A stretch of DNA of 64,000 nucleotides, from positions 1-64,000 of the forward strand of contig NZ_JANHAV010000001.1 in assembly GCF_024464655.1 (NCBI RefSeq), in the 5' to 3' direction. Positions 4,090-51,308 of the stretch are shown here, piece after piece (positions within the stretch are counted from its first letter, which is position 1; each line of letters starts with the position of its first letter). The stretch comes from Halobellus inordinatus (GTDB lineage: Archaea > Halobacteriota > Halobacteria > Halobacteriales > Haloferacaceae). The translations under genes were made by a program, and so were the position numbers. Below the pieces are notes generated by a model. The model was given only the letters and a program-made list of their open reading frames with translations. It did not search any database and was not told the origin of the DNA.

Positions 4090-4161
4090 AGCCTAGGCCG
4101 GGATTTGAACCCGGGGTCTCGTCCTTACCAAGGACGCGCTTTACCGCTAAGCTACCCAGGC
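4090..4161 (-). tRNA. tRNA-Thr (anticodon GGT)
   Basis: Reading the minus strand gives a full cloverleaf: acceptor GCCTGGG/CCTAGGC (one G-T pair), anticodon stem CGTCC/GGACG around loop TTGGTAA with anticodon GGT, and T-arm CCGGG-TTCAAAT-CCCGG. Discriminator U73 is typical for archaeal tRNA-Thr. No CCA is encoded and no intron is seen. A TATA-like TCTTTAGGC (4189-4197) lies about 30 bases upstream of the 5' end. Unlike three other tRNAs in the window, its 3' end is not duplicated downstream. Confidence 0.95.
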
Positions 4162-38826: not shown

Positions 38827-38848
38827 ATGGGCCCTGACGGATTCGAAC
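38827..38848 (-). repeat. Exact copy of the tRNA-Met(CAT) 3' end
   Basis: Twenty-two bases are identical to 38929-38950, the T-loop to 3' end of the elongator tRNA-Met plus one base beyond the discriminator, displaced 102 bases in the 3' direction and in the same orientation. It forms part of a palindrome at 38834-38889. Confidence 0.95.
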
Positions 38849-38889
38849 TTCGGTCGCAGCAAAGCTGCTCCCTGATTCGATTCCGTCAG
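38834..38889. repeat. Palindrome joining a direct and an inverted tRNA-Met T-loop copy
   Basis: The two arms (38834-38860 and 38864-38889, loop AAA) share CTGACGGA and TCGAA at the outer ends and GCAGC/GCTGC next to the loop. The left arm is the exact tRNA 3'-end copy. The right arm contains GATTCGATTCCGTCAG, a decayed inverted copy of the same tRNA segment. Confidence 0.85.
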
Positions 38890-38929
38890 CGTTGCAGGCT
38901 CGGTCCTCGCTTCCGCTCGGACACTCGTA

Positions 38930-39004
38930 TGGGCCCTGACGGATTCGAACCATCGACCACTCGGTTATGAGCCGAGCGCTCTAACCAGACTGAGCTAAGG
39001 GCCC
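38930..39004 (-). tRNA. tRNA-Met, elongator (anticodon CAT)
   Basis: On the minus strand the acceptor stem GGGCCCT/AGGGCCC is perfect, the anticodon stem CTCGG/CCGAG encloses CTCATAA with anticodon CAT, and a T-arm with TTCGAAT follows. Discriminator is A73. G1-C72 and the lack of three consecutive G-C pairs in the anticodon stem argue against an initiator, and the initiator gene is found at 51165. CAT could also mark tRNA-Ile2 (lysidine/agmatidine), so the identity is likely rather than certain. A TATA-like TCTTAGAC lies near 39028-39036. Confidence 0.88.
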
Positions 39005-39115
39005 GACGGTCTACCGTTCCGCGGTCTCCCTCTTAGACGTTATCGTTGTCGCGGCGCGGTTCTGCACAGTAGCAGTGACACTACCGGCTCACACGTCGAC
39101 GTCGAGAGGAAGAAG

Positions 39116-39188
39116 CGCCGTCGCCAGGGCTCGAACCTGGGACCACCTCGTTAACAGCGAGGTGCTCTACCAACTGAGCTACGACGGC
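39116..39188 (-). tRNA. tRNA-Asn (anticodon GTT)
   Basis: The minus strand folds as acceptor GCCGTCG/CGACGGC, D-arm AGCTCAGTTGGTAGAGC, anticodon stem CCTCG/CGAGG with loop CTGTTAA (anticodon GTT), and T-arm CCAGG-TTCGAGC-CCTGG. Discriminator is G73. No CCA is encoded and no intron is seen. It lies between tRNA-Met and the CCA-adding enzyme gene; its 3' end is not repeated downstream. Confidence 0.95.
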
Positions 39189-39343
39189 TCGTGCCTGCAC
39201 ACGAACGTACACCGAGGTAGTATGATAGGGCTTTCGTTTTCACCGCACGGATGCGAGGTACCGGCACAGTCGAGACGCCACACGGCGACTGTCCTGGGCG
39301 CATCGACACTCTTTCGCCGAGCCCACCCGAAGCGGTGACAACG

Positions 39344-40762
39344 ATGGTCGATGCCGACGAGAGACGCCAGGTGATCGAACGCGTCCGCGAGCGGATCACG
39401 CCCGACGCCGCGGAACGCGAGGCGATGCGGGCCGCAGTGGCGTCGCTCACCGAGCGCGTCGAAGCCGAACTCGCCGAACTCCCGGTCGATGGCGACGTCG
39501 TTCAGGTGGGATCGACGGCTCGCGGGACGTGGCTCGCCGGCGACCGTGACATCGACCTGTTCGTCCGGTTCCCGCCGTCGCTCGACCGCGAGACGCTGGA
39601 GCGCTACGGCCTCGAAATCGGCAACGCAGTTCTCCCCGGAGGACACGAGGAGTACGCCGAACACCCCTACGTCACCGGCGAGTTCGAGGGCTTCGACGTC
39701 GATCTCGTTCCCTGCTACGACGTCGGCGAGGGGTCCGCGTTACAGTCGGCTGTCGACCGTACGCCACACCACAACGCCTATCTCCGGGCGCGCATCGACG
39801 ACGACCTCGCGAGCGAGATGCGCGTGTTCAAACAGTTCCTGAAGGGCATCGGCGTCTACGGGAGCAATCTCCGGACCGAGGGCTTCTCGGGGTATCTCTC
39901 TGAACTGCTCGTTCTCGAACACGGCGACTTCGCATCGCTGCTTGAGGCGGCCGCAGACTGGCATCCGCCGGTCGTTTTCGACCCCGAGGATCACGGCTCG
40001 CAGTCTCACGACGACCCGCTCGTGATGGTCGACCCGACAGACTCGACGCGGAACGTCGCCGCGGTCTGCTCGGCCGCGAATCTCGCGCGTCTCCAGCACT
40101 ACGCCCGAGACTTTCTCGACGACCCGCGCGCGGAACTGTTCGAGTCCGCGACACCGGCTCCGCTCGCCCCCGAGGCAGTTCGTACCCACGTCGACCGCCG
40201 CGGGACGACGCCCGTCGCGATCGTCTTCGACGCACCTGACATCGTCGACGATCAGCTGTACCCCCAGCTCAGAAAGTCACTGTCGGGAGTCCGCGACGAA
40301 CTCGATCGCCGTGGGTTCGAGCCGATCCGCGCCGCGACGTTCGCCGACGAGCGCGCGGTGCTGTTCGTCGAACTCGCCCACCGGACGCTCCCGGCGATCG
40401 AACGCCACGACGGCCCGCCCGTGCACGTTCGCCAGCACGCTGAGGGCTTCTACGAGGCGTATGCGGACGACGGCGATGCGTACGCGGACGACGAGGAGGG
40501 ACACGACGAGCCCGACTCGGACTCTGCTCCCGACGTCTACGGGCCGTTCGTCGACGGCGACCGATACGTCGTCGAACGGGCCCGCGAGTTCACCGACGCC
40601 GCCGAACTGCTCGCCTCCGAGGAACTGTTTACGGTCGGCCTCGGCGCGCGGATCCAGACCACACTGGAAGACGACTACGACGTGCTCGTCGGCGACGCGG
40701 TCGCGACGCTCTGTGACAAATTCGGCTCGGAGTTAGCGGCGTATTTCGACCCGCAGCCATAG
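39344..40762 (+). CDS. cca: CCA-adding enzyme (tRNA nucleotidyltransferase, class I)
   Basis: The 472-residue archaeal-type enzyme adds CCA to tRNA 3' ends without a nucleic acid template. The nucleotidyltransferase signature GSTARGTWLAGDRDIDLFVRF has the catalytic carboxylates D69 and D71. The tail region SNLRTEGFSGYLSELLVLEHGDF and VDPTDSTRNVAAVCS match class I CCA enzymes. An Asp/Glu-rich insertion sits at about residues 366-390. The ATG at 39344 is preferred to upstream codons because it starts the conserved helix. It lies beside two tRNA genes that, like all here, lack encoded CCA. Confidence 0.95.
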   Translation: MVDADERRQVIERVRERITPDAAEREAMRAAVASLTERVEAELAELPVDGDVVQVGSTARGTWLAGDRDIDLFVRFPPSLDRETLERYGLEIGNAVLPGGHEEYAEHPYVTGEFEGFDVDLVPCYDVGEGSALQSAVDRTPHHNAYLRARIDDDLASEMRVFKQFLKGIGVYGSNLRTEGFSGYLSELLVLEHGDFASLLEAAADWHPPVVFDPEDHGSQSHDDPLVMVDPTDSTRNVAAVCSAANLARLQHYARDFLDDPRAELFESATPAPLAPEAVRTHVDRRGTTPVAIVFDAPDIVDDQLYPQLRKSLSGVRDELDRRGFEPIRAATFADERAVLFVELAHRTLPAIERHDGPPVHVRQHAEGFYEAYADDGDAYADDEEGHDEPDSDSAPDVYGPFVDGDRYVVERAREFTDAAELLASEELFTVGLGARIQTTLEDDYDVLVGDAVATLCDKFGSELAAYFDPQP

Positions 40763-40796
40763 CGGTGGGCTGATCGCTGGCGTCGGGTCCGTCTCT

Positions 40797-41813
<1,017 letters not shown>

Positions 41814-41815
41814 CG

Positions 41816-42247
41816 CTACTCGAAGAGGGCGAAGTACGTCTCGATGTCTTCGGCCTGAACCGTTCGCCGGTCCGCGTGCTGAGCCAGCGTCGCGGCCGCG
41901 CTCGCGACGTTGTCGGCGTAGTCTTCGAGGATGTCCGCGAGGGCGATCCGGGCATCCATCGAGACGCGGTACCGGTCGTCGATTTCGAGGCGGGCGATAC
42001 GGTCGATCGGCGCGATCGGCAGTTCGAGTTCGCGACGACTGACGACCTGCTGGACGTCGAAGTCCTCGGCCATCAACGTCTTGCGGCCGTCTTCGGCCGC
42101 TTTCTCGGCGGCCTCGACGGCGAGCGCCGCCCCGTGTTCTTGGACGCGACGAGCGAGTTCCTCGGCTGCCCCGGAACTGACCCGGAGGTCGCCGGCTCTC
42201 CGTCGAATGATAGTGTCCACGGGGGCGAACGGCAACTCGACACTCAT
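41816..42247 (-). CDS. hpyA: Archaeal histone, tandem histone-fold doublet
   Basis: The 143-residue protein contains two histone folds in one chain. The first (residues 1-70) has ELPFAPVDTIIRRRAGDLRVSSGAAEELARRVQEHG. The second (residues about 75-143) has ELPIAPIDRIARLEIDDRYRVSMDARIALADILEDYA and RRTVQAEDIETYFALF. This doublet form is characteristic of haloarchaea and folds as a pseudo-dimer. The protein is less basic than other archaeal histones. TATA-like GATTATACG (minus strand, 42272-42280) lies 25-33 bases before the ATG, so it is leaderless. It is followed by the deacetylase gene. Confidence 0.93.
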   Translation of the reverse strand: MSVELPFAPVDTIIRRRAGDLRVSSGAAEELARRVQEHGAALAVEAAEKAAEDGRKTLMAEDFDVQQVVSRRELELPIAPIDRIARLEIDDRYRVSMDARIALADILEDYADNVASAAATLAQHADRRTVQAEDIETYFALFE

Positions 42248-42382
42248 TACCAACATATGCGGTTCGACCGGCGTATAATCCTTTCCGTAGCGACCCCTGT
42301 GCCGCTCGCTGTCTGTCCGACGCCGTCGCTCGGCGGTTCTGCGCGGCGCGACTGGCGAACGTCGTCTCCGCTCCGTCGCGGC

Positions 42383-43867
42383 TTACTCCGTCCGCTCGAC
42401 GTCGGCCGCGGTGATCGTTCCGTCGCTGACGGGGCCGGTAACGGTCACTTCCTCGCCCAGGCGGAGCGACTCGTCGGTTTCGACGCTTCGCGTCTCGGTC
42501 CCGTCGTCGAGGACGACCGGGCTTCCGGCCTGTACGACCGTGCCGGTGAACGTCTCGGTGCCGCCCGTCTCCGCGTCCGTGGTCGTCGTCTCCGCCGACT
42601 GGTCCGTGACTGTCGCGGCGACTGCGCCTGACCCCGACCCGTCGACGCTGGCCGCTCCGTCGCTCGCTGTGGTGTCGTCCGTATCGTTGCTACCGCTCGC
42701 CTCGAACGCGCCCAGTCCGGTCGACTGCGCTGCTTCGGCGGTAGTGTCGGCGGCGTCTTCCGGCGCGTCGTCCATCACGCTGATCGTCGATTGCCACCCG
42801 GCGGAGGCTTCGAGGTCGTCCTGCCAGCCGTCCTGAATCTCGACGTCCGTGAAGACGACGTAGTCCGCGAGGTCGATGTCGAGGTCGGCCTTCTCGCCCC
42901 AGAGTGCGACCCGGATGTCGCCGGTCTCGTCTTTGATTCGGACGTTCCGGACCTGTCCCTCGGAGCCGTCGTCGCGGTCGAACGTTCGCTTGGGATCGGT
43001 CTCGATGACGCCGCCCGCGATATCGGTGGTCTCGCCGAGTTCGAGCGCGTCGATGTCCGTCGTGTCGGGGACGTACTCGATCGCCTCGTCGAGGGCTTCG
43101 ACCGCGCCGCGGTTCCCGACGTGGAGTTCGAGCGTGCCGTCGCGCTCTCTGACGTAGCCGTCGACGACTTCGACGGAGTCGCCGGTGTCGAACTCGGTCG
43201 CCAGATCGGCCTTCTCGTCCCAGAGCGTGACGCGCACGCGACCGGTCGGACCGCCGAGCGTCAGGTTCGCGACGCGGCCCTCCGAGCCGTCGTCGCGGTC
43301 GAACGTCCGGACGCTGTCGGTACTGAGTACGCGACCCTTCAGATTCACGTCCGAGAGCCCGAGCGCGAGGTCCTCGACGCGGTAGGTGTCGAGCGCCTCC
43401 ACGTCGACTTCGGCGTCCGGGGCGGGTTCGACCTTGTCGACGTCGACTTCGACGCCGTTGTAGCCCTCTTTCGGACGCCCCGCCACACGGAGCACCTGCC
43501 CGACTTCGAGCCTCTCGACGGCGTCTTCGGCCATACCGTCCCACATCGTGATCCGGATGCGGCCGGATTCGTCGGCGACTTCGACGTTGACGACGCTCCC
43601 GTCGTCGTCGTCGCCGTCGCGCTCGAACGTCCGGAGGTCGCCGACGCTCATCACCTTCGCGAGGAACTTCACGTCGTCCATCCCCGGTGCGACGTCGGCG
43701 ACGCCCTCGACCTCCTCGTCGCGGAGTTCGTGGGCGATGAGCATCGCGGCGGTCTCCTCGTCGGCGAGGCCCCCCATCTGTTCGACCTTGTCCTCGACGG
43801 CGGCCTCGAACTCCTCGAAGTCGACGTCGGTGTCGAGGTCGTCGTACACGTCTTCGATTGCTCCCAT
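42383..43867 (-). CDS. rpa2: Replication protein A, multi-OB-fold ssDNA-binding protein (Rpa2/RpaC-like)
   Basis: The 494-residue protein has an N-terminal helical segment, three OB folds and a further short C-terminal OB-like stretch. Each OB fold carries the repeat (R/K)TF(D/E)RDDGSEGxVxN followed by GRVRVTLWDEKADL or a close variant (about residues 70-150, 175-250 and 275-345). An Ala/Thr/Asp linker (about 365-435) separates the last OB-like part. RPA coats ssDNA in replication and repair. The Haloferax homologue lies close to the histone and deacetylase genes as here. No zinc finger is seen. Confidence 0.9.
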   Translation of the reverse strand: MGAIEDVYDDLDTDVDFEEFEAAVEDKVEQMGGLADEETAAMLIAHELRDEEVEGVADVAPGMDDVKFLAKVMSVGDLRTFERDGDDDDGSVVNVEVADESGRIRITMWDGMAEDAVERLEVGQVLRVAGRPKEGYNGVEVDVDKVEPAPDAEVDVEALDTYRVEDLALGLSDVNLKGRVLSTDSVRTFDRDDGSEGRVANLTLGGPTGRVRVTLWDEKADLATEFDTGDSVEVVDGYVRERDGTLELHVGNRGAVEALDEAIEYVPDTTDIDALELGETTDIAGGVIETDPKRTFDRDDGSEGQVRNVRIKDETGDIRVALWGEKADLDIDLADYVVFTDVEIQDGWQDDLEASAGWQSTISVMDDAPEDAADTTAEAAQSTGLGAFEASGSNDTDDTTASDGAASVDGSGSGAVAATVTDQSAETTTTDAETGGTETFTGTVVQAGSPVVLDDGTETRSVETDESLRLGEEVTVTGPVSDGTITAADVERTE

Positions 43868-44214
43868 CTACGCGACACCCCCATCGCGGCGACGGCCGTC
43901 GGGTTCGAGCGCGAAACCCGCGGGTCGAGCGGATACGGCCACAGGCATATCCACAGCCAGGGTAGGCCGCCGCTTAAGCGTTGTCTTGTCGGTGGTTCTG
44001 CGCCGTGTGCGGGCCGTCTCGCCGTCTCGCGGTTCCCCGATCTGCCCCCGTGCTACGCGCTGTATCCCCCGGTCGATCTCTGGCACGCGAGGTGTGGTTC
44101 CGTCCTCCTATATGAACGTTCGCTGGACCTGAACGTTCGATGCGCCCGTCGGTGCCGGTGCGCCATCTGTTCGCCACGTCGCCGGCGCGCCGTCTCCTCT
44201 CTGCCGGAACGCGG
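43868..44214. other. Long upstream region of the RPA gene with a repeated palindromic site
   Basis: This 347-base region has no convincing gene. A TATA-like sequence for the minus-strand RPA gene (complement of GCTTAAGC) lies near 43974-43981. Further upstream TGAACGTTCG occurs twice, at 44113-44122 and 44130-44139; each holds the 8-base palindrome GAACGTTC, and the spacing is 17 bases. This looks like a two-site operator, though it is also only 76 bases after the downstream end of the lipoprotein gene. Confidence 0.5.
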
Positions 44215-44712
44215 TCACTTCGTCACGTCCGCCACAGTCCGTCGCCCGTCGACGTCGTCGTGGACGACCTCCACACCGGTCGGCGCTGTGCCGCTCGTCT
44301 CGATATCGACCTCGTAGCCGAGATTCGTGAGCACTTCCGCGCACGCCTCGTCTTCCTCGCGTTCTTCGACGGCTGCGACGACGACGGTGACGTCGCCCGT
44401 GTCGGCGTCGTAAGTGGTGTCCTGCAACCGCGGGACGGTACAGGCGTTCTTGCCGACGACGCAGCCGACGACCGAGATTTCGCCGTCGTCGCCGAACGAG
44501 ACGGTCGCCGCGCCGGGCTCGGGGCACTTCGCTCGCGGTATCAACGTCGCTGTGATGTGATTCGTCGTCACGGTGGAACTGGGTGGCGTGTCTGTCTCGG
44601 TGGCTCCGTTCGCGGTGTCCGTCCCCGGCGTCGCCTGCTCTGAGCTGGTACAGCCGGCGACGGCGGTCGGGAGGGCGACTGCGAGGCCCGAGAGGACCGT
44701 TCGGCGCAGCAT
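44215..44712 (-). CDS. Tat-type secreted lipoprotein, unknown function
   Basis: The 165-residue protein starts MLRRTVLSGLAVALPTAVAGC, a twin-arginine-like signal with a lipobox (AVAGC, lipidated Cys at residue 21). A Thr/Ser-rich linker follows, then a small domain with three more cysteines (residues about 63, 83, 90) that could form disulfides outside the cell. The function is unknown and I do not recognise the domain. An in-frame ATG at 44727 would add five residues and is less likely. The gene is divergent from tRNA-Arg. Confidence 0.65.
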   Translation of the reverse strand: MLRRTVLSGLAVALPTAVAGCTSSEQATPGTDTANGATETDTPPSSTVTTNHITATLIPRAKCPEPGAATVSFGDDGEISVVGCVVGKNACTVPRLQDTTYDADTGDVTVVVAAVEEREEDEACAEVLTNLGYEVDIETSGTAPTGVEVVHDDVDGRRTVADVTK

Positions 44713-44888
44713 ACTTTGTGATAGCACGTACCACCCAAAAGCGGTGTCGGAGGCTCAAACGGTCTCTTGTGTCACTCTTCGGTCAGGCTTCGGGTTCGAT
44801 TTGCCGGCCGACCGCAACCGTGTGTGTCGGTGCCGTAGCACCGTCGCATCGTAACCCTCATAAGTGAATGCGGAGTACGAAGAGATGA

Positions 44889-44961
44889 GTCCTGATAGGG
44901 TAGTGGACTATCCTCTTGGCTTGCGGAGCCAGGGACCGGAGTTCAAATCTCCGTCAGGACG
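44889..44961 (+). tRNA. tRNA-Arg (anticodon GCG)
   Basis: The acceptor stem GTCCTGA/TCAGGAC is perfect, the anticodon stem TTGGC/GCCAG encloses TTGCGGA with anticodon GCG, and the T-arm is CGGAG-TTCAAAT-CTCCG. Discriminator is G73. No CCA is encoded. TATA-like CTCATAAG lies at about 44857-44864, 25-32 bases upstream. The last 23 bases of the gene are repeated exactly at 45061-45083. Confidence 0.95.
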
Positions 44962-45021
44962 TTTCTGCGAGACGCAACGCGACGAGCGGAGCGGGTCGTC
45001 TGCGCCGGTTTATACGACTAT

Positions 45022-45075
45022 CGGAGGCTTGAGCAGCGAGCATCGCGAAGCGATGCGAGCGAGTTCAAATCTCCG
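45022..45075. repeat. Palindrome joining inverted and direct tRNA-Arg T-loop copies
   Basis: The arms 45022-45046 and 45050-45075 flank the loop GAA. The inner stem CATCGC/GCGATG is perfect and the outer CGGAG/CTCCG is perfect. In between, the left arm has CGGAGGCTTGAGC, a decayed inverted version of the T-loop segment that is exact in the right arm. Confidence 0.8.
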
Positions 45076-45083
45076 TCAGGACG
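45061..45083 (+). repeat. Exact copy of the tRNA-Arg 3' end
   Basis: Twenty-three bases are identical to 44939-44961 (last T-stem bases, T-loop, 3' T-stem, 3' acceptor strand and discriminator), displaced 122 bases downstream in the same orientation. It forms the right arm of a palindrome at 45022-45075. Confidence 0.95.
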
Positions 45084-45153
45084 CTACAGTGTACCGGTGC
45101 CACACGACGAGCACACGAGACGTCCCCTCTGAGAAAAAATTTGCCAGCGCCGC

Positions 45154-45381
45154 TCACTCGTCGTCGTAGCGCGACGGCGCGTCGGCGTCATCGTCGTCGA
45201 GTCGCCGCACGGAGGGCGTCGTCCGACGCCGGAGCCGGCGGGGGCCCGTCTCCTCGGACTCGCGCTCGTCGGCGTCGGCCGCCCACGACTCGTGACACGA
45301 GAGGCAGTAGTTCCCTCCGTAGCCGTTCGGGCGGACGAACTCGGTACCGCAGTCGAGACAGGTGACGTGCGCGCGGGTCAT
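45154..45381 (-). CDS. Small zinc-finger protein, DUF7563-like
   Basis: The 75-residue protein has CLDCGTEF (residues 8-11) and CLSCHESW (residues about 26-29), a two-knuckle zinc finger, followed by an Arg-rich then Asp-rich tail (GPRRLRRRTTPSVRRLDDDDAD). Such proteins are widespread in haloarchaea and unassigned; the charged tail may contact nucleic acid or a partner. It lies between the tRNA-Arg repeat and the DUF309 gene, both on the opposite strand. Confidence 0.7.
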   Translation of the reverse strand: MTRAHVTCLDCGTEFVRPNGYGGNYCLSCHESWAADADERESEETGPRRLRRRTTPSVRRLDDDDADAPSRYDDE

Positions 45382-45568
45382 TGGCTTCGCCTCCGGGGCG
45401 GGGACGTGGGCTGTGTAGTCATATGCTGTTCACCTGTACGATAGTCCTGCAAGCGGATAAGTTCGTCACCCACTGTCACACTCCTGCTGGCACACTCTCG
45501 CTGGCATCGAGGAGGGCGGAATCCTGCCGAACGCCGAGTATTTACTCGCGCGACGACAACTTCCGACT

Positions 45569-46231
45569 GTGCAAGATGCGCTCCGGATCGGTATCGCGGT
45601 GTTCAACGCCGGCGACCATCGCGCCGCACACGACGCCTGGGAGGACCCGTGGCTCGACCTCGACGACGGGACGCCCGAGGAGCGACTGCTCCACGGGCTG
45701 ATCCAGTACGCGGCGGCGGTACATCACTCTCGCCGGCGCAACTGGAGCGGGGCGCGCGGACTGGCCGAGAGCGCGGCGCAGTACCTCGCCGACGTCGACG
45801 CAGCGTCCCGGGACGTGAACGTCGCGGACGTGCGTGCGTATCTCCGGCGACTCGCCGCCGACCCGGAACTCGCCGAACGTCGTCGGCCGCCCGCGCTCCG
45901 TTACGACGGCGACGCGCTGGAGCCGACGGATCTCTCCTTCGAGCACGTCGCTGCCGCGGCAGCACTCCTGGCGCGCGAGTACGAGGCGTTCGAGGAATCG
46001 GTCGTCGACGACGCGATTCGGTACGCGCGATCAGAGGCGGACGAGAGCGACAGCCCCGACGGCGATTCGCCCGATACGGCGCTCGCGGCCTCGCGCTCGC
46101 GGGGTTTCGTCGGGATGCTGTTCGACTTCGCGGCCGACCGCGAGCGACGCGCGCTCGTCTACGATCGACTCCAGCGGCACGTCGAACGGCAGCGGAGCGA
46201 AGAGCGCGACGTCGCCGGGCTGTTCGACTGA
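45569..46231 (+). CDS. DUF309 family protein
   Basis: The 220-residue helical protein has the DUF309 motif FNAGDHRAAHDAWEDPWLDLDDGTPEERLLHGLIQYAAAVHHSRRRNWSGARGLAESAAQYL (residues about 12-73), with the paired HxxHxxWE pattern that suggests a metal or small-molecule site. The C-terminal half is less conserved. A GTG start at 45569 is used because it precedes the motif at the usual distance. The function of DUF309 is unknown. Confidence 0.8.
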   Translation: MQDALRIGIAVFNAGDHRAAHDAWEDPWLDLDDGTPEERLLHGLIQYAAAVHHSRRRNWSGARGLAESAAQYLADVDAASRDVNVADVRAYLRRLAADPELAERRRPPALRYDGDALEPTDLSFEHVAAAAALLAREYEAFEESVVDDAIRYARSEADESDSPDGDSPDTALAASRSRGFVGMLFDFAADRERRALVYDRLQRHVERQRSEERDVAGLFD

Positions 46232-46285
46232 ACGCCCGAATCAGTCAAAAAATTGAACGACTGTCGGCGCGTACGACTCTCTGGT

Positions 46286-46570
46286 ATGGTAATCCAAGAC
46301 GATATCAAAGACGCCATCGGTGACGGGCGAGACGAGCTCGTTCGCGTGCTGGCGGCGCACGGCGTTCTCCCAACGATCGTCGAATCGGGTGGATCGAGCC
46401 TCGGCGGGCTCTCGTCGTCGCCGACGTTCAGACTGGAAACGTCAGACGGGACCAGCGTCGCCGACAGACAGACGCGCTCGAAGGTGGTCGACGCGCTCGG
46501 GATGTCCTCTGCGGACGACTGCGAGACGGTCCGCGAGGAGATACAGAGCCACGACGCCTGGGAGAACTGA
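46286..46570 (+). CDS. Small conserved hypothetical protein, 94 aa
   Basis: The protein (start MVIQDDIKDAIGDGRDELVRVLAAHGVLPTIV) is soluble, with a helical N-terminal half and a Ser/Gly-rich middle (ESGGSSLGGLSSSPTF), and ends in an acidic helix. I recognise no family. An in-frame ATG at 46253 would add eleven basic residues. It is convergent with the SDR gene that follows. Coding is supported by composition and a clear start with nearby AT-rich upstream sequence. Confidence 0.5.
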   Translation: MVIQDDIKDAIGDGRDELVRVLAAHGVLPTIVESGGSSLGGLSSSPTFRLETSDGTSVADRQTRSKVVDALGMSSADDCETVREEIQSHDAWEN

Positions 46571-46597
46571 TCGTCTCGGTTCGACCGCGAGCGTGCC

Positions 46598-47383
46598 TCA
46601 CTCCTCGACGACGCGTTCGTCCTCGCGCCACTCCGCGGAGTTGTCCTGCGGGTCGTAGCCGAGGACCTCCTTCGCGCGCTCGATGGAGTAGTACTTCCGG
46701 TCGTTGTCGGAGATGCCGTAGACGATCTCGTAGTCGTAGTCCGCCAGGATACAGCGCTCGAAGAGGTGCGCACAGTCGCGGTAGGAGAGCCACATCGCCT
46801 GCCCGCGCTCGTAGTCGATCGGGGGATGGCCCTCGGTGAGGTTGCCGATGCGGACGTTGACGACCGAGAGGTCGTGATGGTCGTGGTAGTACCGCCCGAG
46901 CACCTCGCCGGTCGCTTTGCTCACGCCGTAGAGGTTGCTGGGGCGGGGCAGCTCCGTCCCGTCCAAGCGGAACTCGTCTTCGGGTCGATACAATTCCGGC
47001 GTCCGCGCGTCCGTCTCGTACGCGCCGACGGCGTGATTCGATGAGGCGAAAGCGAACTTCTCGACGCCCGTCTCGACGGCCGCCTCGAACATCGTCTGCG
47101 TCCCGTCGATGTTGTTCTGCAGGACGCTGTCCCACGGCGCCTCTGGGCGCGGATCGCCCGCGAGGTGGACCACGGCGCGGCAGCCTTCGAGCGCCTCGTG
47201 AACCGCCTCGTCGTCGGTGACGTCCGCGACGAACACGTCGTCGTCGTCGACGCTCTCGGGACGCTTCGCGTCCGGCAGCGGCTCTCGGTCGAGCAGTCGC
47301 CAGTCGAACTCGGAACCGACGTGGCGGAGGATGGCCTGCCCGACGCGTCCGCCCGCCCCTGTCAGGAGAACCGGGTCGTCCAT
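46598..47383 (-). CDS. azf: Extended SDR, Azf-like NAD+-dependent glucose-6-phosphate dehydrogenase
   Basis: The 261-residue protein has the extended-SDR TGAGGRVG nucleotide loop (residues 8-15), an acidic residue after beta2 (LLDREPLPD) favouring NAD+, and the catalytic YGVSK (Tyr/Lys) in NLYGVSKATGEVLGRYY. Length and sequence (HLAGDPRPEAPW, VNVRIGNLTEGHPP, YGISDNDRKYYS) resemble Haloferax Azf, the NAD+-dependent G6P dehydrogenase of haloarchaea, which feeds the oxidative pentose phosphate pathway. The similar neighbourhood of histone and RPA genes in Haloferax supports this. A generic UDP-sugar epimerase is the alternative. Confidence 0.82.
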   Translation of the reverse strand: MDDPVLLTGAGGRVGQAILRHVGSEFDWRLLDREPLPDAKRPESVDDDDVFVADVTDDEAVHEALEGCRAVVHLAGDPRPEAPWDSVLQNNIDGTQTMFEAAVETGVEKFAFASSNHAVGAYETDARTPELYRPEDEFRLDGTELPRPSNLYGVSKATGEVLGRYYHDHHDLSVVNVRIGNLTEGHPPIDYERGQAMWLSYRDCAHLFERCILADYDYEIVYGISDNDRKYYSIERAKEVLGYDPQDNSAEWREDERVVEE

Positions 47384-47568
47384 TCGAACGACCATCCGGG
47401 CAGGGAGGCCAAGAAACGTCCGATTCGCGCCCGTGACGGCGAGCCGACAGGTCTCGCTTCGGTTTTCTACGTCTCGGGGGTCGGCTGCCCCGCCCGGAGC
47501 CCATCCTGACTGGGCCGATCCGTCGCCGTAGCCGATAGTCCCTTAGCCCACGGCGACGGAGACCGGAT

Positions 47569-47931
47569 ATGACCGACGCGGGGCAGGCAGGGACGGATGC
47601 AGAGCGCGCGTGCTTCGAGGCGGGTATCAAGTTCGGCACGCTCTATCACCAGTTCGCGGGCACGCCCGTGAGCCCCCAGAGCGCCGAAAGCCTCGGCCGG
47701 GCGATGGAGGAAGCGATCGAGAACCAACCGTACTGCGTCGACGTCGACGTCGACGTCCGAACGGACCGCATCGCCGCAGAGTTGGAGGCGCAGTCGGCCG
47801 AGTACACGGAGCTGACCGGTCGCTTCGTCGACGTCGAGATGCGGATCGAGTACGAGGGCGTGACCGTCCGCACGCGGATGGAGATGGAAGGCGACTATCC
47901 GCTTATGAAACTCGTCGCGGTCGAGGAGTGA
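47569..47931 (+). CDS. mptD: Archaeal dihydroneopterin aldolase (MptD-type)
   Basis: The 120-residue protein matches the archaeal aldolase that cleaves 7,8-dihydroneopterin to 6-hydroxymethyldihydropterin in folate/methanopterin-type cofactor synthesis. Features are ACFEAGIKFGTLYHQFAGTPVS (residues about 14-35), AMEEAIENQPYCVDVDVDV (active-site Glu/Tyr region), and a C-terminal beta-rich half ending GDYPLMKLV. It is unrelated to bacterial FolB. No other pterin gene is adjacent. Confidence 0.88.
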   Translation: MTDAGQAGTDAERACFEAGIKFGTLYHQFAGTPVSPQSAESLGRAMEEAIENQPYCVDVDVDVRTDRIAAELEAQSAEYTELTGRFVDVEMRIEYEGVTVRTRMEMEGDYPLMKLVAVEE

Positions 47932-48015
47932 CCGCGCCCGAGCGCGCATCAGCCGCACGATTTCACTTTCACTTTCGGGCGTGTTTTTAACCCCTCCCGC
48001 GTCGAAGCCGATGGT

Positions 48016-48510
48016 ATGAGTAGCCAGAGCACACTCGGTGACGACGACCTGTTCGGAGAGGCTGCTGCAGAGATGCGCGAGGAGGTCGAGAGCCACCTCG
48101 CCGACGCGCGAGCGGAACTCCCCGATTCCGACGCGGTGTGGGACGCGGAGGCAGACAACGTCCTCGGGGTTCTCAACGCGCTCCGTTCGGCACTGGACGT
48201 CGGCGAGGCGGAAGAGCACCTCCGCCAGGCGAAGAAGACCTTCATCGTGGGACAACGCGCGGAAGCCTTCGACGACCCCGACGCGATCGAAGCGCAGGTC
48301 GAGTCAGTCGAGGAACTCCTTGTGTCGCTCGCCGAGGCCGAAGACCTCGTCGGCGACCTCACCGGCACGATGCCGCAGGTCCGGAGCCAACTGCAGGAAG
48401 CGGCCGAAGCCGCCGAGAGTTCTGCGGCGGACGATGCGGCCGACAGCGACGAGGAGGCCGCAGACGAGGCCGACGCAGCGGACGCGAGTGCGGACGAGGC
48501 GGACGCATAG
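48016..48510 (+). CDS. DUF5790 family acidic protein
   Basis: The 164-residue protein is helical and acidic: EEVESHLADARAELPDSDAVWDAEADNVLGVLNALRSALDVGEAEEHLRQAKKTFIVGQRAEAF forms a conserved core (residues about 22-86), followed by a helical segment and a 40-residue Ala/Asp/Glu tail. It is a conserved haloarchaeal family of unknown function. TATA-like GTTTTTAAC (47981-47989) is 27-35 bases before the ATG. It is on the same strand as the acidic HhH protein that follows, each with its own promoter. Confidence 0.7.
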   Translation: MSSQSTLGDDDLFGEAAAEMREEVESHLADARAELPDSDAVWDAEADNVLGVLNALRSALDVGEAEEHLRQAKKTFIVGQRAEAFDDPDAIEAQVESVEELLVSLAEAEDLVGDLTGTMPQVRSQLQEAAEAAESSAADDAADSDEEAADEADAADASADEADA

Positions 48511-48556
48511 CGACCGCAATCCGGGCATCCGCTCGGTGACGCCGACGCGGCGCAAC

Positions 48557-48568
48557 GGTTTTTAAATA
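48557..48568 (+). promoter_or_regulatory. TATA-like box for the HhH acidic protein
   Basis: GGTTTTTAAATA at 48557-48568 is a strong haloarchaeal TATA match 25-36 bases before the ATG at 48593. Confidence 0.55.
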
Positions 48569-48592
48569 CTCGACGGCCATATCATCAACGTA

Positions 48593-49459
48593 ATGAGTAT
48601 CTTCGACACGATCTTGTCGTCGCTGCGCTCGCTCGTCGGCGGCGGGAGCACGAATGAGTCTGAATCGTCGCCGGGATCGACGCGGGCGGGCGGGCAGGTC
48701 TCTGTCGAACACGAGACGGAACGTGCGGACGCGGACGCGTCGACGGAGGCGACGATCAAAGGCGCCGACGACGCCGAGACCTCGACCGAATCCGAAGACG
48801 CGACTGAGTCGGGGGACGCGACCGACTCAGAGACGTCGACCGAGGATGCGACCGCAGAGCCAGTAGCGGCCGAGACCGACGCCGCGGCGTCGACTGAGAC
48901 GCTCCTCGACGATGAGACCGGCAAAGAGCCCGCAGAGGCCGTCGAAACGGCCGGGGAAGGTGAGGAAGCTGTCTCCCCCGACCCCGACGCCGAGGATATC
49001 GAGACGGCCGACGACGCGGTCGCGGCAGACACCGACGCTGCGGCCTCGACCGAGACGCTCGTCGACGAGGCGACGGGTCAAGAGCCCGCCGAGGCCGTCA
49101 CGCCGACGGAAGCGCTCGAAGACGGGAGCGAAGACGAGAATGCGAGTGCGGAAGATGACGACGCTGCGTCTGCTGACGACGAAGCGGACGCGACAGCGGC
49201 GGAAGCAGATACGACAGCGGACGAAGCGGACACGACAGCGGACGACGAAGCCGCCGGTGCAGAGACCGGCGAAGACGAGAGCGAACCGGTCGAGACGCTC
49301 AAAGGCATCGGTCCTGCCTACGCCGAGCGACTCGGGACCGTCGACATCGAGACTGTCGCGGACCTCGCGGCTGCTGACGCCGACGACGTCGCCGACGATA
49401 TCGGCGTCTCATCGAAGCGCGTCTCCGGTTGGGTCGAGCGCGCTCGCGAGCAGTCTTAG
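48593..49459 (+). CDS. Acidic repeat protein with C-terminal helix-hairpin-helix
   Basis: The 288-residue protein consists of an N-terminal amphipathic segment (MSIFDTILSSLRSLVGGG), about 200 residues of Asp/Glu/Ala/Thr-rich disordered sequence, and a C-terminal helix-hairpin-helix (LKGIGPAYAERLGTVDIETVADLAAADADDVADDIGVSSKRVSGWVERA, residues about 236-284), a non-specific DNA-binding fold. The linker holds a repeated unit DTDAAASTETL(L/V)DxxTGxEPAEAV at about residues 100 and 145. The domain is similar to those on ribosomal or topoisomerase-linked HhH proteins. Function is unknown; a DNA tether with an acidic arm is plausible. Confidence 0.75.
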   Translation: MSIFDTILSSLRSLVGGGSTNESESSPGSTRAGGQVSVEHETERADADASTEATIKGADDAETSTESEDATESGDATDSETSTEDATAEPVAAETDAAASTETLLDDETGKEPAEAVETAGEGEEAVSPDPDAEDIETADDAVAADTDAAASTETLVDEATGQEPAEAVTPTEALEDGSEDENASAEDDDAASADDEADATAAEADTTADEADTTADDEAAGAETGEDESEPVETLKGIGPAYAERLGTVDIETVADLAAADADDVADDIGVSSKRVSGWVERAREQS

Positions 49460-49481
49460 CGCTCTCGTGATCTCCGACCGG

Positions 49482-50378
49482 ATGGCCGACCTCCGCTACC
49501 ACGTCGACGGCGAACTGGTTCCGGCAGAAGCGGCGGCTGTGAGCGTCCGTGACCGGGGATTTGTGTACGGCGACGCGATCTTCGAGACGCTCCGCGCGTA
49601 CGGCGGCGACGTGTTCCGCTGGGACGCACACGCCGACCGCCTCGCGGATTCTGCGGAGGCGCTCTCGCTCGATCACGGCCTCTCGGACCCGGAGCTGAAA
49701 CGGCGTGTCGACGAGACGTTGCGGGCGAGCGACCTCGAAGACGCCTCTGTGAAGCTCTCTGTCACCCGTGGGGTCCAGTCGGACGCGCTCACGCCCGACC
49801 CGGCGGTCGACCCGACGGTTGTCGTCCAAGTGACCCCGCGCCCCCGGGGCGGCGTCGATTCGACCTCCGTCTGGGACGAGCCGGCGACGCTCCAGACGGT
49901 TCGGACGCGTCGCATCCCCGACGAGTCGCTCCCGTCGCGAGCGCAGACGCACAACTACCTGAACGGCGTCCTCGCCCGTATCGAACTCCGCGTTTCGGAC
50001 GCCGACGAGGCCGTGATGCTCGACGGCGACGGTCACCTCGCGGCGGGCGCGACGTCCACTCTCTTCTTCGTCGATGGAGAGGCGCTCTGCACGCCGAGTC
50101 TCGACGGCCCCGTCCGTCCGGGGATCGCGCGCAGAGAGGTCCTCGACATCGCCCGCGACGAAGGCATTCCGGTCCGCGAGGGTGCGTTCACGCCCGACGA
50201 CCTCCGCGGGGCCGAAGAAGCGTTCGTGACGAACACGACCTGGGAGGTCCGCCCCGCCGAAACGGTCGACGGCATCGATGTCGGCGGCGGCCCGCTCACG
50301 ACGCTGTTCCAGCGCGTCTACGACGCTCGCGTCGAGCGCGACCACTATGGCGGGGGCGACAGCGGCCTCCGGGAGTGA
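49482..50378 (+). CDS. Class IV PLP-dependent aminotransferase (PabC/BCAT family)
   Basis: The 298-residue fold-type IV PLP enzyme has DRGFVYGDAIFETLRAYGGDVFRWDAHADRLADSA near the N-terminus, THNYLNGVLARIE with Lys replaced in this stretch by the tyrosine/asparagine context, EAVMLDGDGHLAAGATSTLFFVDGEALCTPSLDGPVRPGIARREVL, and AEEAFVTNTTWEVRPAETVDG. The catalytic Lys normally in SxKxxNYL is replaced (SRAQTHNYLNG), so it could be an inactive or variant member. Candidate roles are aminodeoxychorismate lyase or amino acid aminotransferase. The start is the ATG at 49482 following the HhH gene by 22 bases. Confidence 0.8.
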   Translation: MADLRYHVDGELVPAEAAAVSVRDRGFVYGDAIFETLRAYGGDVFRWDAHADRLADSAEALSLDHGLSDPELKRRVDETLRASDLEDASVKLSVTRGVQSDALTPDPAVDPTVVVQVTPRPRGGVDSTSVWDEPATLQTVRTRRIPDESLPSRAQTHNYLNGVLARIELRVSDADEAVMLDGDGHLAAGATSTLFFVDGEALCTPSLDGPVRPGIARREVLDIARDEGIPVREGAFTPDDLRGAEEAFVTNTTWEVRPAETVDGIDVGGGPLTTLFQRVYDARVERDHYGGGDSGLRE

Positions 50379-50450
50379 CTCCGCCCACGCCTCCCACCGC
50401 GTCGACGCCAAACCGTCACGCTTGAATCGCCGTACCCCAAACGCGCGGCT

Positions 50451-50861
50451 ATGGACGAGGAACGCCGCATCGCTGCGGCCGACGAGGTCTCCGCGGACGA
50501 GACGGTCGTCTTCACCGCGAAATCCGGATTCGAGACGACCGAAGGACTCCTCACTCGACGCGACGACGGTTCTGTCATTGCCTTCACGAACTACTGTCCG
50601 CACTGGCGCGACGTCCGATTAGACAAGGGTTCGAGCGCATTGGTGCGCAACGGCGAACTCGTCTGTCAGAAACACGGTGCGACGTTCGAAAAGCAGAGCG
50701 GAAACTGCAACTTCGGTCCGTGTGAGGGTGCGGTCCTCGACACTTTCGAGGTGACCGTCGACGACGGCGCGGTCTATCTCACCGACGACGAGTGGGACGC
50801 CGCCGAACCCGGCCTCTCCGAGGAGCGGGACCTCTCCTCGGGCGGTCGGATCGACTTCTGA
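50451..50861 (+). CDS. Rieske 2Fe-2S protein
   Basis: The 136-residue protein carries the Rieske ligands C49 and H51 (NYCPHWRDV) and C72 and H75 (VCQKHGATF), a Cx1H-x20-Cx2H set. It has no signal or membrane anchor, so it is a soluble ferredoxin-type Rieske protein rather than a bc1 subunit. Such proteins serve as electron donors to oxygenases or nitrite-reductase-like enzymes; no partner enzyme is adjacent. The acidic C-terminus is typical of the host. Confidence 0.88.
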   Translation: MDEERRIAAADEVSADETVVFTAKSGFETTEGLLTRRDDGSVIAFTNYCPHWRDVRLDKGSSALVRNGELVCQKHGATFEKQSGNCNFGPCEGAVLDTFEVTVDDGAVYLTDDEWDAAEPGLSEERDLSSGGRIDF

Positions 50862-51020
50862 TCGGAAGTATCGTCGTCCGCATAGCATTCTCGCCGGATA
50901 GTGCGGTAAGAGCCGATAAATAATTACGACAATCCTTAGGTGAATCTGACAGCTCGTGGTTTTTGAACCGCATTCGACTGATAACCGTACAGCACCTCTC
51001 GAATGGTTGATTTCAGGAGA

Positions 51021-51042
51021 ATAGCGGGAGGTAGATTTGAAC
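51021..51042 (-). repeat. Exact copy of the initiator tRNA-Met 3' end
   Basis: Twenty-two bases are identical to 51164-51185, the T-loop to 3' end of the initiator tRNA with the discriminator and one further base, displaced 143 bases in the tRNA's 3' direction and in the same orientation. Confidence 0.95.
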
Positions 51043-51091
51043 GACGTCTGCGTCGGTCGCGGCGCTCCCTCGCAGTCTCGTTCAAATCTAC
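51031..51091. repeat. Palindrome of direct and inverted initiator tRNA T-loop copies
   Basis: The left arm 51031-51052 and right arm 51071-51091 share GTAGATTTGAAC/GTTCAAATCTAC exactly plus CTGCG/CGCAG near the 18-base loop. The left arm is the 3'-end copy; the right arm begins an inverted copy of the same tRNA part. Confidence 0.9.
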
Positions 51092-51112
51092 TCGTGCTAT
51101 GACTGCCGAACG
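51080..51112 (+). repeat. Inverted, diverged copy of the initiator tRNA 3' end and trailer
   Basis: GTTCAAATCTAC then GTGCTATG and CTGCCGAACG on the plus strand parallel the minus-strand tRNA 3' end and its first bases of trailer, with a few changes and small gaps. It is therefore complementary to 51150-51185, and the two can form a long stem across a 37-base spacer (51113-51149). Confidence 0.85.
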
Positions 51113-51164
51113 CAGGAGTTACTCGGCGATACGACGCCTCGCTGTGTTACGTTCGGCAGAACCA

Positions 51165-51239
51165 TAGCGGGAGGTAGATTTGAACTACCGATCTCCGGGT
51201 TATGAGCCCGGCGGAATCTCCTGGCTATCCCATCCCGCT
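51165..51239 (-). tRNA. Initiator tRNA-Met (anticodon CAT)
   Basis: The acceptor stem AGCGGGA/TCCCGCT has the A1-U72 pair typical of archaeal initiators. The anticodon stem CCGGG/CCCGG, with three consecutive G-C pairs, surrounds CTCATAA (CAT). The T-arm is GGTAG-TTCAAAT-CTACC and the discriminator is A73. No CCA is encoded. TATA-like CTTAACC (minus strand, about 51263-51269) lies near -25 to -30. Its 3' end is repeated at 51021-51042. Confidence 0.95.
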
Positions 51240-51308
51240 ACTGAAACGAAACCGTGGGTTACGGTTAAGGGTTGTGTTTCGCCCGCAGTGTGGCAATTTC
51301 CCTCGCGG

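Follow-up and report, generated by a model that had tools for sequence, protein, structure and literature searches.

The 64,000-nt window analysed here (Halobellus inordinatus contig NZ_JANHAV010000001.1, positions 1–64,000, forward strand) contains five tRNA genes, three of which are each followed by a non-coding tail that ends in a copy of the tRNA's own 3′ end. Such tails lie directly behind tRNA genes across the class Halobacteria. They share one architecture, are precisely present or absent between related species, form polarised arrays, share hairpin modules between different tRNAs and carry arms matched to the local tRNA. It is proposed, with a probability of roughly one half, that tails are archaeal tRNA-linked repeats (TLRs): small non-autonomous insertions at tRNA 3′ ends whose folded hairpin is recognised by a recombinase acting in trans. 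This reading is close to the small tRNA-linked element mobilised in trans that an initial annotation of the window had listed among its possibilities.

Architecture of a tail unit

Each unit is 65–160 bp long, and the order of parts is the C segment of the tRNA (nt 52–73), a leader hairpin (HP1), an inverted arm (C′), a hairpin module (HP2) and the copy of C. The tRNA genes and tails of the window are as follows, with the basis of each assignment in brackets.

4090–4161, minus strand: tRNA-Thr gene (ARAGORN)
38828–38848, minus strand: elongator tRNA-Met, direct 3′-end copy, 21/22 (sequence)
38849–38875, minus strand: elongator tRNA-Met, HP2 module of type I, TCAGGGAGCAGCTTTGCTGCGACCGAA (type I family across Halobacteria; fold)
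38876–38886, minus strand: elongator tRNA-Met, C′ inverted arm ACGGAATCGAA, 10/11 complementary to tRNA nt 54–64 (sequence; p = 0.004 against shuffles)
38887–38929, minus strand: elongator tRNA-Met, leader with HP1 (GTCCGAGCGGAAGCGAGGAC), from tRNA to inverted arm (sequence)
38930–39004, minus strand: elongator tRNA-Met gene, its nt 52–73 being template C (ARAGORN, Rfam)
39115–39188, minus strand: tRNA-Asn gene (ARAGORN)
44889–44961, plus strand: tRNA-Arg(GCG) gene (ARAGORN, Rfam)
44962–45021, plus strand: tRNA-Arg-gcg, leader with HP1, chimeric, 5′ part like loci L087 and L090, 3′ part like L095 (comparison with these loci)
45022–45032, plus strand: tRNA-Arg-gcg, C′ inverted arm CGGAGGCTTGA (alone not significant, p = 0.42; clean GGAGATTTGA form in relatives)
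45033–45061, plus strand: tRNA-Arg-gcg, HP2 module of type III, GCAGCGAGCATCGCGAAGCGATGCGAGCG (family also on Arg-gcg of relatives and Ser-tga of genome G010)
45062–45083, plus strand: tRNA-Arg-gcg, direct 3′-end copy, 22/22 (sequence)
45084–45112, plus strand: truncated leader of a second Arg-gcg unit, matching HP1 of L095 (comparison with relatives)
51021–51042, minus strand: initiator tRNA-Met, direct 3′-end copy, 22/22 (sequence)
51043–51080, minus strand: initiator tRNA-Met, HP2 module (sequence; fold)
51081–51091, minus strand: initiator tRNA-Met, C′ inverted arm GTAGATTTGAA, 11/11 to nt 54–64 (p = 0.002 against shuffles)
51092–51163, minus strand: initiator tRNA-Met, leader with HP1, TGCCGAACG...CGTTCGGCA (sequence)
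51164–51240, minus strand: initiator tRNA-Met gene (ARAGORN, Rfam)

No downstream 3′-end copy accompanies the Thr and Asn genes of the window. Behind the elongator Met, Arg-gcg and initiator Met genes, the last 21–22 nt of the tRNA recur 81, 100 and 121 nt past its end. The initial annotation had located these three tails and their loops (AAA, GAA and a longer one) correctly; its distances of 102, 122 and 143 nt hold for the far ends of the copies rather than for their starts. The elongator Met leader resembles the leader of another tail in this genome, that of tRNA-Val-tac.

Per-position agreement between a copy and its own tRNA, taken over 177 ungapped tails, is 0.86–0.99 from nt 52 to nt 73, falls to chance to the left of nt 52 and stands at about 0.6 at nt 74–75. 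In 93 of these tails no mismatch occurs between nt 54 and the 3′ end, and in the others the match is at least 75%; neither the 177 tails nor inspection revealed a CCA after the copy. The sharp bounds at nt 52 and nt 73, the chance-level match to the left and the missing CCA indicate that the segment was copied as DNA; reverse transcription from mature tRNA is unlikely, as the copy is not followed by CCA.

C′, the inverted arm, pairs with just nt 54–64 of its own tRNA: the T loop together with nt 61–64. Among 151 tails, pairing with the own tRNA, as opposed to swapped tRNAs, was 0.87 versus 0.75 at nt 62, 0.66 versus 0.41 at nt 63 and 0.50 versus 0.27 at nt 64. No complementarity above chance is seen past nt 65, which rules out the initial view of the arm as a decayed inverted version of all 22 bp. 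Inverted arms outperformed shuffled sequence at seven loci of the H. inordinatus genome (p ≤ 0.004), although the Arg arm of the window, taken alone, did not.

HP2 modules fall into at least eight sequence families that occur in one orientation only. In silico folds of 13 examples, computed with RNA parameters, share a T-arm stem of 11–13 bp, a small asymmetric internal loop, which in most families is larger on its 3′ side, and an inner stem that often ends in a GAGCGAAGCGAG mini-hairpin. GCGAAGC-type hairpins are extraordinarily stable in DNA (PMC10527192), and such stability would ease the folding of tails as single-stranded DNA. A short unit type of 65 bp, copying only the last 13–15 nt of the tRNA, was seen mixed among long units at tRNA-Arg-gcg (L096, L097, L089) and elsewhere (L240, L254 and others).

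Arms, fold and orientation could also be explained by selection on RNA pairing, with tails acting as co-transcribed hairpins in termination, in 3′ processing or as small RNAs. Unrelated HP2 sequences do adopt a common fold, and inserts fold better than controls (mean z-score −1.08 versus −0.06). HP1 stems of at least 9 bp are commoner in tails (27%) than behind tail-less tRNAs (12%), and counting G–T wobbles lifts C′ pairing at nt 64 from 0.50 to 0.68; this tolerance of wobble pairs makes a structured-RNA role possible. Three rRNA-linked TLRs of Escherichia coli are, moreover, transcribed and bound by CsrA and Hfq (PMC8144298). However, the exact copy includes nt 65–73, which are unpaired with C′, and the majority of tRNA kinds are tail-less while the tailed set varies between congeners, which argues that tRNAs have no general need for tails. 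A structured trailer RNA is accordingly considered an unlikely account of the tails.

Occurrence, gain or loss, and exchange of units

The scan of tRNA genes for downstream copies that the initial annotation had proposed proved strongly positive. Fifty-seven tRNA genes were located in the H. inordinatus genome, and a near-exact copy of the own 3′ end lies 73–160 bp downstream in 15 of 41 tRNA kinds, the other kinds having none. Downstream copy scores were bimodal, with 15 tRNA genes at 30–44, one further match and all others at 18 or below, in a survey that left out a dense, probably viral tRNA cluster on contig C11. Shuffled sequence scored 28 at most, and random coincidence is ruled out by the bimodal scores together with the shuffles. 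Nothing comparable was found upstream of the tRNA genes of this genome. The one further downstream match is a whole tandem tRNA-Asp gene; tandem whole-gene copies of tRNA-Asp-gtc, with a period of about 85–100 bp, were also observed at L034, L053, L302, L283, L118, L127 and L231. The omitted C11 cluster (C11:749571-753711; L028, L030, L039) comprises some 17 tRNA genes of low score, has a tyrosine-integrase gene close by at 755024-755590 and is probably a tailed-virus or provirus cluster.

The recurrence of the architecture with each local tRNA was borne out across species. When GTDB genomes were scanned with a pattern, at least 119 matches were obtained; of those listed, all but one belong to Halobacteria (Halobellus, Halorubrum, Haloferax, Natrinema, Haloarcula and other genera). 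Among the first 80 loci, 71 of 82 matches lie within 1.5 kb downstream of a tRNA gene in the same orientation, mostly at 37–81 bp and with 26 anticodons represented; several of the remainder follow an intron-bearing tRNA-Trp, and matches away from tRNA surroundings are rare. A strict pattern that gave zero control matches was present in 20 of 31 good-quality genomes of the same order, and the type I pattern in six of nine genomes drawn from this order but in none of 61 other genomes of the phylum. Fetching loci by pattern enriches for tails by design, and the unbiased counts are those of the H. inordinatus genome and its congeners G015 and G010, in which 15/41, 12/41 and 19/40 tRNA kinds, respectively, are tailed. 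Tail-like palindromes without a close upstream tRNA gene, at L160, L170, L179, L207, L208 and L213, appear to be displaced or orphaned tails. No Rfam family covers the tails, and no description of such repeats in haloarchaea was located in the open-access literature.

Between congeners, the gain or loss of units is exact to the base. At Leu-cag, Gly-ccc and Ser-gga, the sequence after the copy in the tailed species is the sequence that directly follows the tRNA in the empty version. For Leu-cag in G015 and H. inordinatus, positions 0–396 after the copy align with positions 0–396 after the tRNA; for Gly-ccc, 1–396 aligns with 2–399. Comparison with G015 likewise gives a base-exact empty site for the initiator Met tail of the window, and the flank TCTCCTGA behind its copy lies directly behind the tRNA in tail-less L087.

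Loci carry one to five units, with five behind Ser-tga in L336, and arrays of two to five units may mix module types. The initial annotation did not note the polarity of these arrays: in 22 of them the first copy, next to the tRNA, is the better match to it, in three the second is, and in 13 the two are equal (p = 7e-5, symmetric selection).

Modules are also shared between tRNAs. Type I ends (CAGGGAG..CGACCGTGG) are found with 20 different tRNA kinds, and four HP2 modules recur end to end without any difference behind two tRNA kinds each. In G118, the Arg-ccg and Lys-ttt tails have an identical 29-nt HP2 and nearly all of HP1 in common, with arms fitted to each tRNA; conversely, two adjacent units at Arg-cct in G056 have the same HP1, C′ and C but wholly different HP2. 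None of 185 distinct modules was inverted, which rejects double-strand recombination between inverted T loops, since this would be expected to invert modules exactly. Module sharing and exchange without inversion suggest that HP2 acts as an exchangeable piece bounded by two inverted T-loop sequences. The initial annotation had held that the pattern is not one element moved around; the HP2 modules common to different tRNAs imply that it does in part consist of a single element family shifted between tRNA genes.

Alternatively, such units might arise, be duplicated and be corrected passively during replication, through slippage and hairpin-driven template switching at the T arm and without a dedicated enzyme. 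Tandem near-identical units (L135 and L286, and L350 except for HP2) and chimeric leaders such as that of the window Arg tail are compatible with this, and quasipalindrome correction predicts arms matched to the local tRNA. Passive replication accounts poorly, however, for ends fixed at nt 52 and nt 73, for the mixing of module types within arrays, and for the same HP2 behind different, genomically distant tRNAs and across families. It therefore seems improbable as the source of the tails.

Recombinases and the proposed mechanism

Tyrosine-integrase elements use some of the same tRNA genes. tRNA-Arg-ccg of H. inordinatus holds a 12.7-kb element (C22:99124-111870; L332:1125-13870) whose products include several universal stress proteins, a P-type cation ATPase and a tyrosine integrase. 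The sequence CCCGTCGGGTCCGCTA is common to its attR and the tRNA; the attR immediately precedes the tail, and 12.7 kb now separate this tail from the tRNA. In G118, a tail is displaced by a second large element, whose integrase is related (57% identity). Tails could in principle be ordinary attachment-site scars of such elements with the interior lost, and the polarised arrays are compatible with accretion. The two large elements, however, share a core of about 13–16 bp and leave no C′ T-arm palindrome of their own: they show the normal integrase scar, and such a scar is not a tail. The tail is instead a separate feature behind these elements, relatives carry it directly at the tRNA, its conserved, exchangeable modules are not a feature of scars, and no viral contig has the type I or II module. 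Integrase scars are therefore a most improbable explanation, in agreement with the initial annotation, which had judged them inadequate. In searches for a viral or plasmid origin, viral contigs and plasmids gave no module matches and a phage collection only chance Mycobacterium matches.

Under the TLR reading, a unit would enter at the tRNA 3′ end, leaving the whole tRNA on the left and the second 3′-end copy on the right. New units would enter beside the tRNA, so that arrays would grow there. The feature recognised may be the folded C′–HP2–C, in which structure is kept, sequence is free and orientation is fixed. The match of C′ to C would be maintained either through hairpin-templated copying (quasipalindrome correction) or through selection on pairing. 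The recombinase would be supplied in trans; foremost among the candidates is a tyrosine recombinase, such as the XerA-like protein universal in Halobacteria. XerA of Pyrococcus is reported to bind stem-loop att structures (PMC8371274). One strong XerA-like match was found in each of 31 good-quality Halobacteria genomes (31/31; in H. inordinatus at C20:102713-103780, corresponding to L356:1211-2281).

Several points weigh against this reading. Because the XerA-like gene is universal, it gives no correlation with the tails, cannot explain which genomes hold many of them and was rejected as a recombinase whose presence tracks them. Neither the XerA-like recombinase nor any other enzyme is tied to the units; no autonomous relative was found, and viral contigs contained neither type I nor type II modules. 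Exact empty sites would equally follow from precise loss through recombination of the direct copies, simple cut-and-paste does not predict re-tailored C′ arms, and folds would also be preserved under structured-RNA selection.

Comparison with known systems

The closest known kind, which the initial annotation did not recognise, is the TLR of E. coli, described in 1978 and, in tRNA operons, still without known function (PMC8144298). These repeats are defined by an 18–19-bp exact match to the 3′ end of the tRNA or rRNA upstream and number one to five per locus (PMC8144298). Reading of the tyrT/V, argQZYV and lysT loci of strain MG1655 showed that the tRNA 3′ end terminates every unit found. In the clearest units, an inverted arm matching the tRNA (Tyr, GGGGAAGGAT, 10 nt; Arg, GGGAGGAT, 8 nt; Lys, CGTGTAGGAT, about 10 nt with a wobble) is followed by a hairpin module, CGTTGC..GCAACGRCCCGWAGGGCGA..GAGT, common to Tyr, Arg and Lys; some Lys modules contain GAGCGAAGCGAG. 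A combined test gave p = 5.5e-4, with units of one operon not being independent.

E. coli TLRs (rttR behind tyrT/tyrV, argQZYV and the lysT operon) thus resemble tails in their terminal copy of the own tRNA 3′ end, their position directly behind the tRNA and their one to five units. The tRNA-matched inverted arm and the module shared between tRNAs, likewise common to both, were found here and are not a published criterion. In E. coli, however, the copy begins at nt 58/59 and includes CCA, whereas the haloarchaeal copy is 22 nt long and begins at nt 52; this difference in copy length places the tails as a variant kind of TLR rather than in the same family. The E. coli modules have other sequences and several hairpins. 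TLRs are known from ten loci in a single genome; tails, by contrast, are class-wide, occupy up to half of tRNA genes and have many module families.

Other systems are more distant. Scars of tyrosine integrases (SNJ2, pNOB8 and SSV types) share the 3′-end duplication, the whole tRNA, the exact empty site and tandem accretion; tails, by contrast, are non-coding, modular units of about 100 bp whose inverted arm follows the tRNA and whose hairpin architecture is fixed, and they have neither an integrase nor a full-length relative. Integron attC sites and cassette arrays also grow at one anchor, with one imperfect palindrome closing each unit, conservation of fold rather than sequence and asymmetric unpaired bases, yet tails have no gene cassettes and their palindrome arms are T-arm sequence; an integron was rejected because the integron integrase model TIGR02249 scored below cut-off in G000, G010, G118 and G046. 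The PATEs, MITEs and SMRs of Haloquadratum are similarly small, palindromic, non-coding mobile repeats of haloarchaea (PMC3119063), for which no tie to tRNA genes is described there, and PATEs lack a target duplication (PMC3119063). A MITE was rejected, as inspection revealed no inverted repeats at unit ends and nearly all matches lie behind tRNAs rather than dispersed. For casposon or Cas1-type insertion, a target duplication at the tRNA 3′ end would be expected, and a 22-bp duplication is seen there in tails. Bacterial contigs in IMG/VR (L108-L112, L114, L115) contain perfect hairpins with arms like tRNA 3′ ends (GGATTTGAACCATG..CATGGTTCAAATCC) and adjoining GCCCCGCTA; these are of another make, and perhaps represent another tRNA-linked palindrome of bacterial integrated elements.

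More tentatively, and with the odds against it, haloarchaeal tails and E. coli TLRs may form one class of structure-recognised mobile cassettes at tRNA genes, in which the fold rather than the sequence is read by a recombination system that places units at tRNA 3′ ends and re-templates the arms on the new tRNA at each move, giving gene-less, integron-like arrays in two domains of life. The same layout in E. coli and in a class of archaea points to one widespread, unexplained kind of repeat in two domains. Presence or absence between close species turns a one-genome curiosity into a system with hundreds of natural experiments, through which the origin of the copies, their restriction to the tRNA 3′ side and any reading of folded DNA hairpins at tRNA genes by a host recombinase are open to testing. 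Tails also explain partial tRNA repeats that could confuse the mapping of integration sites in haloarchaea.

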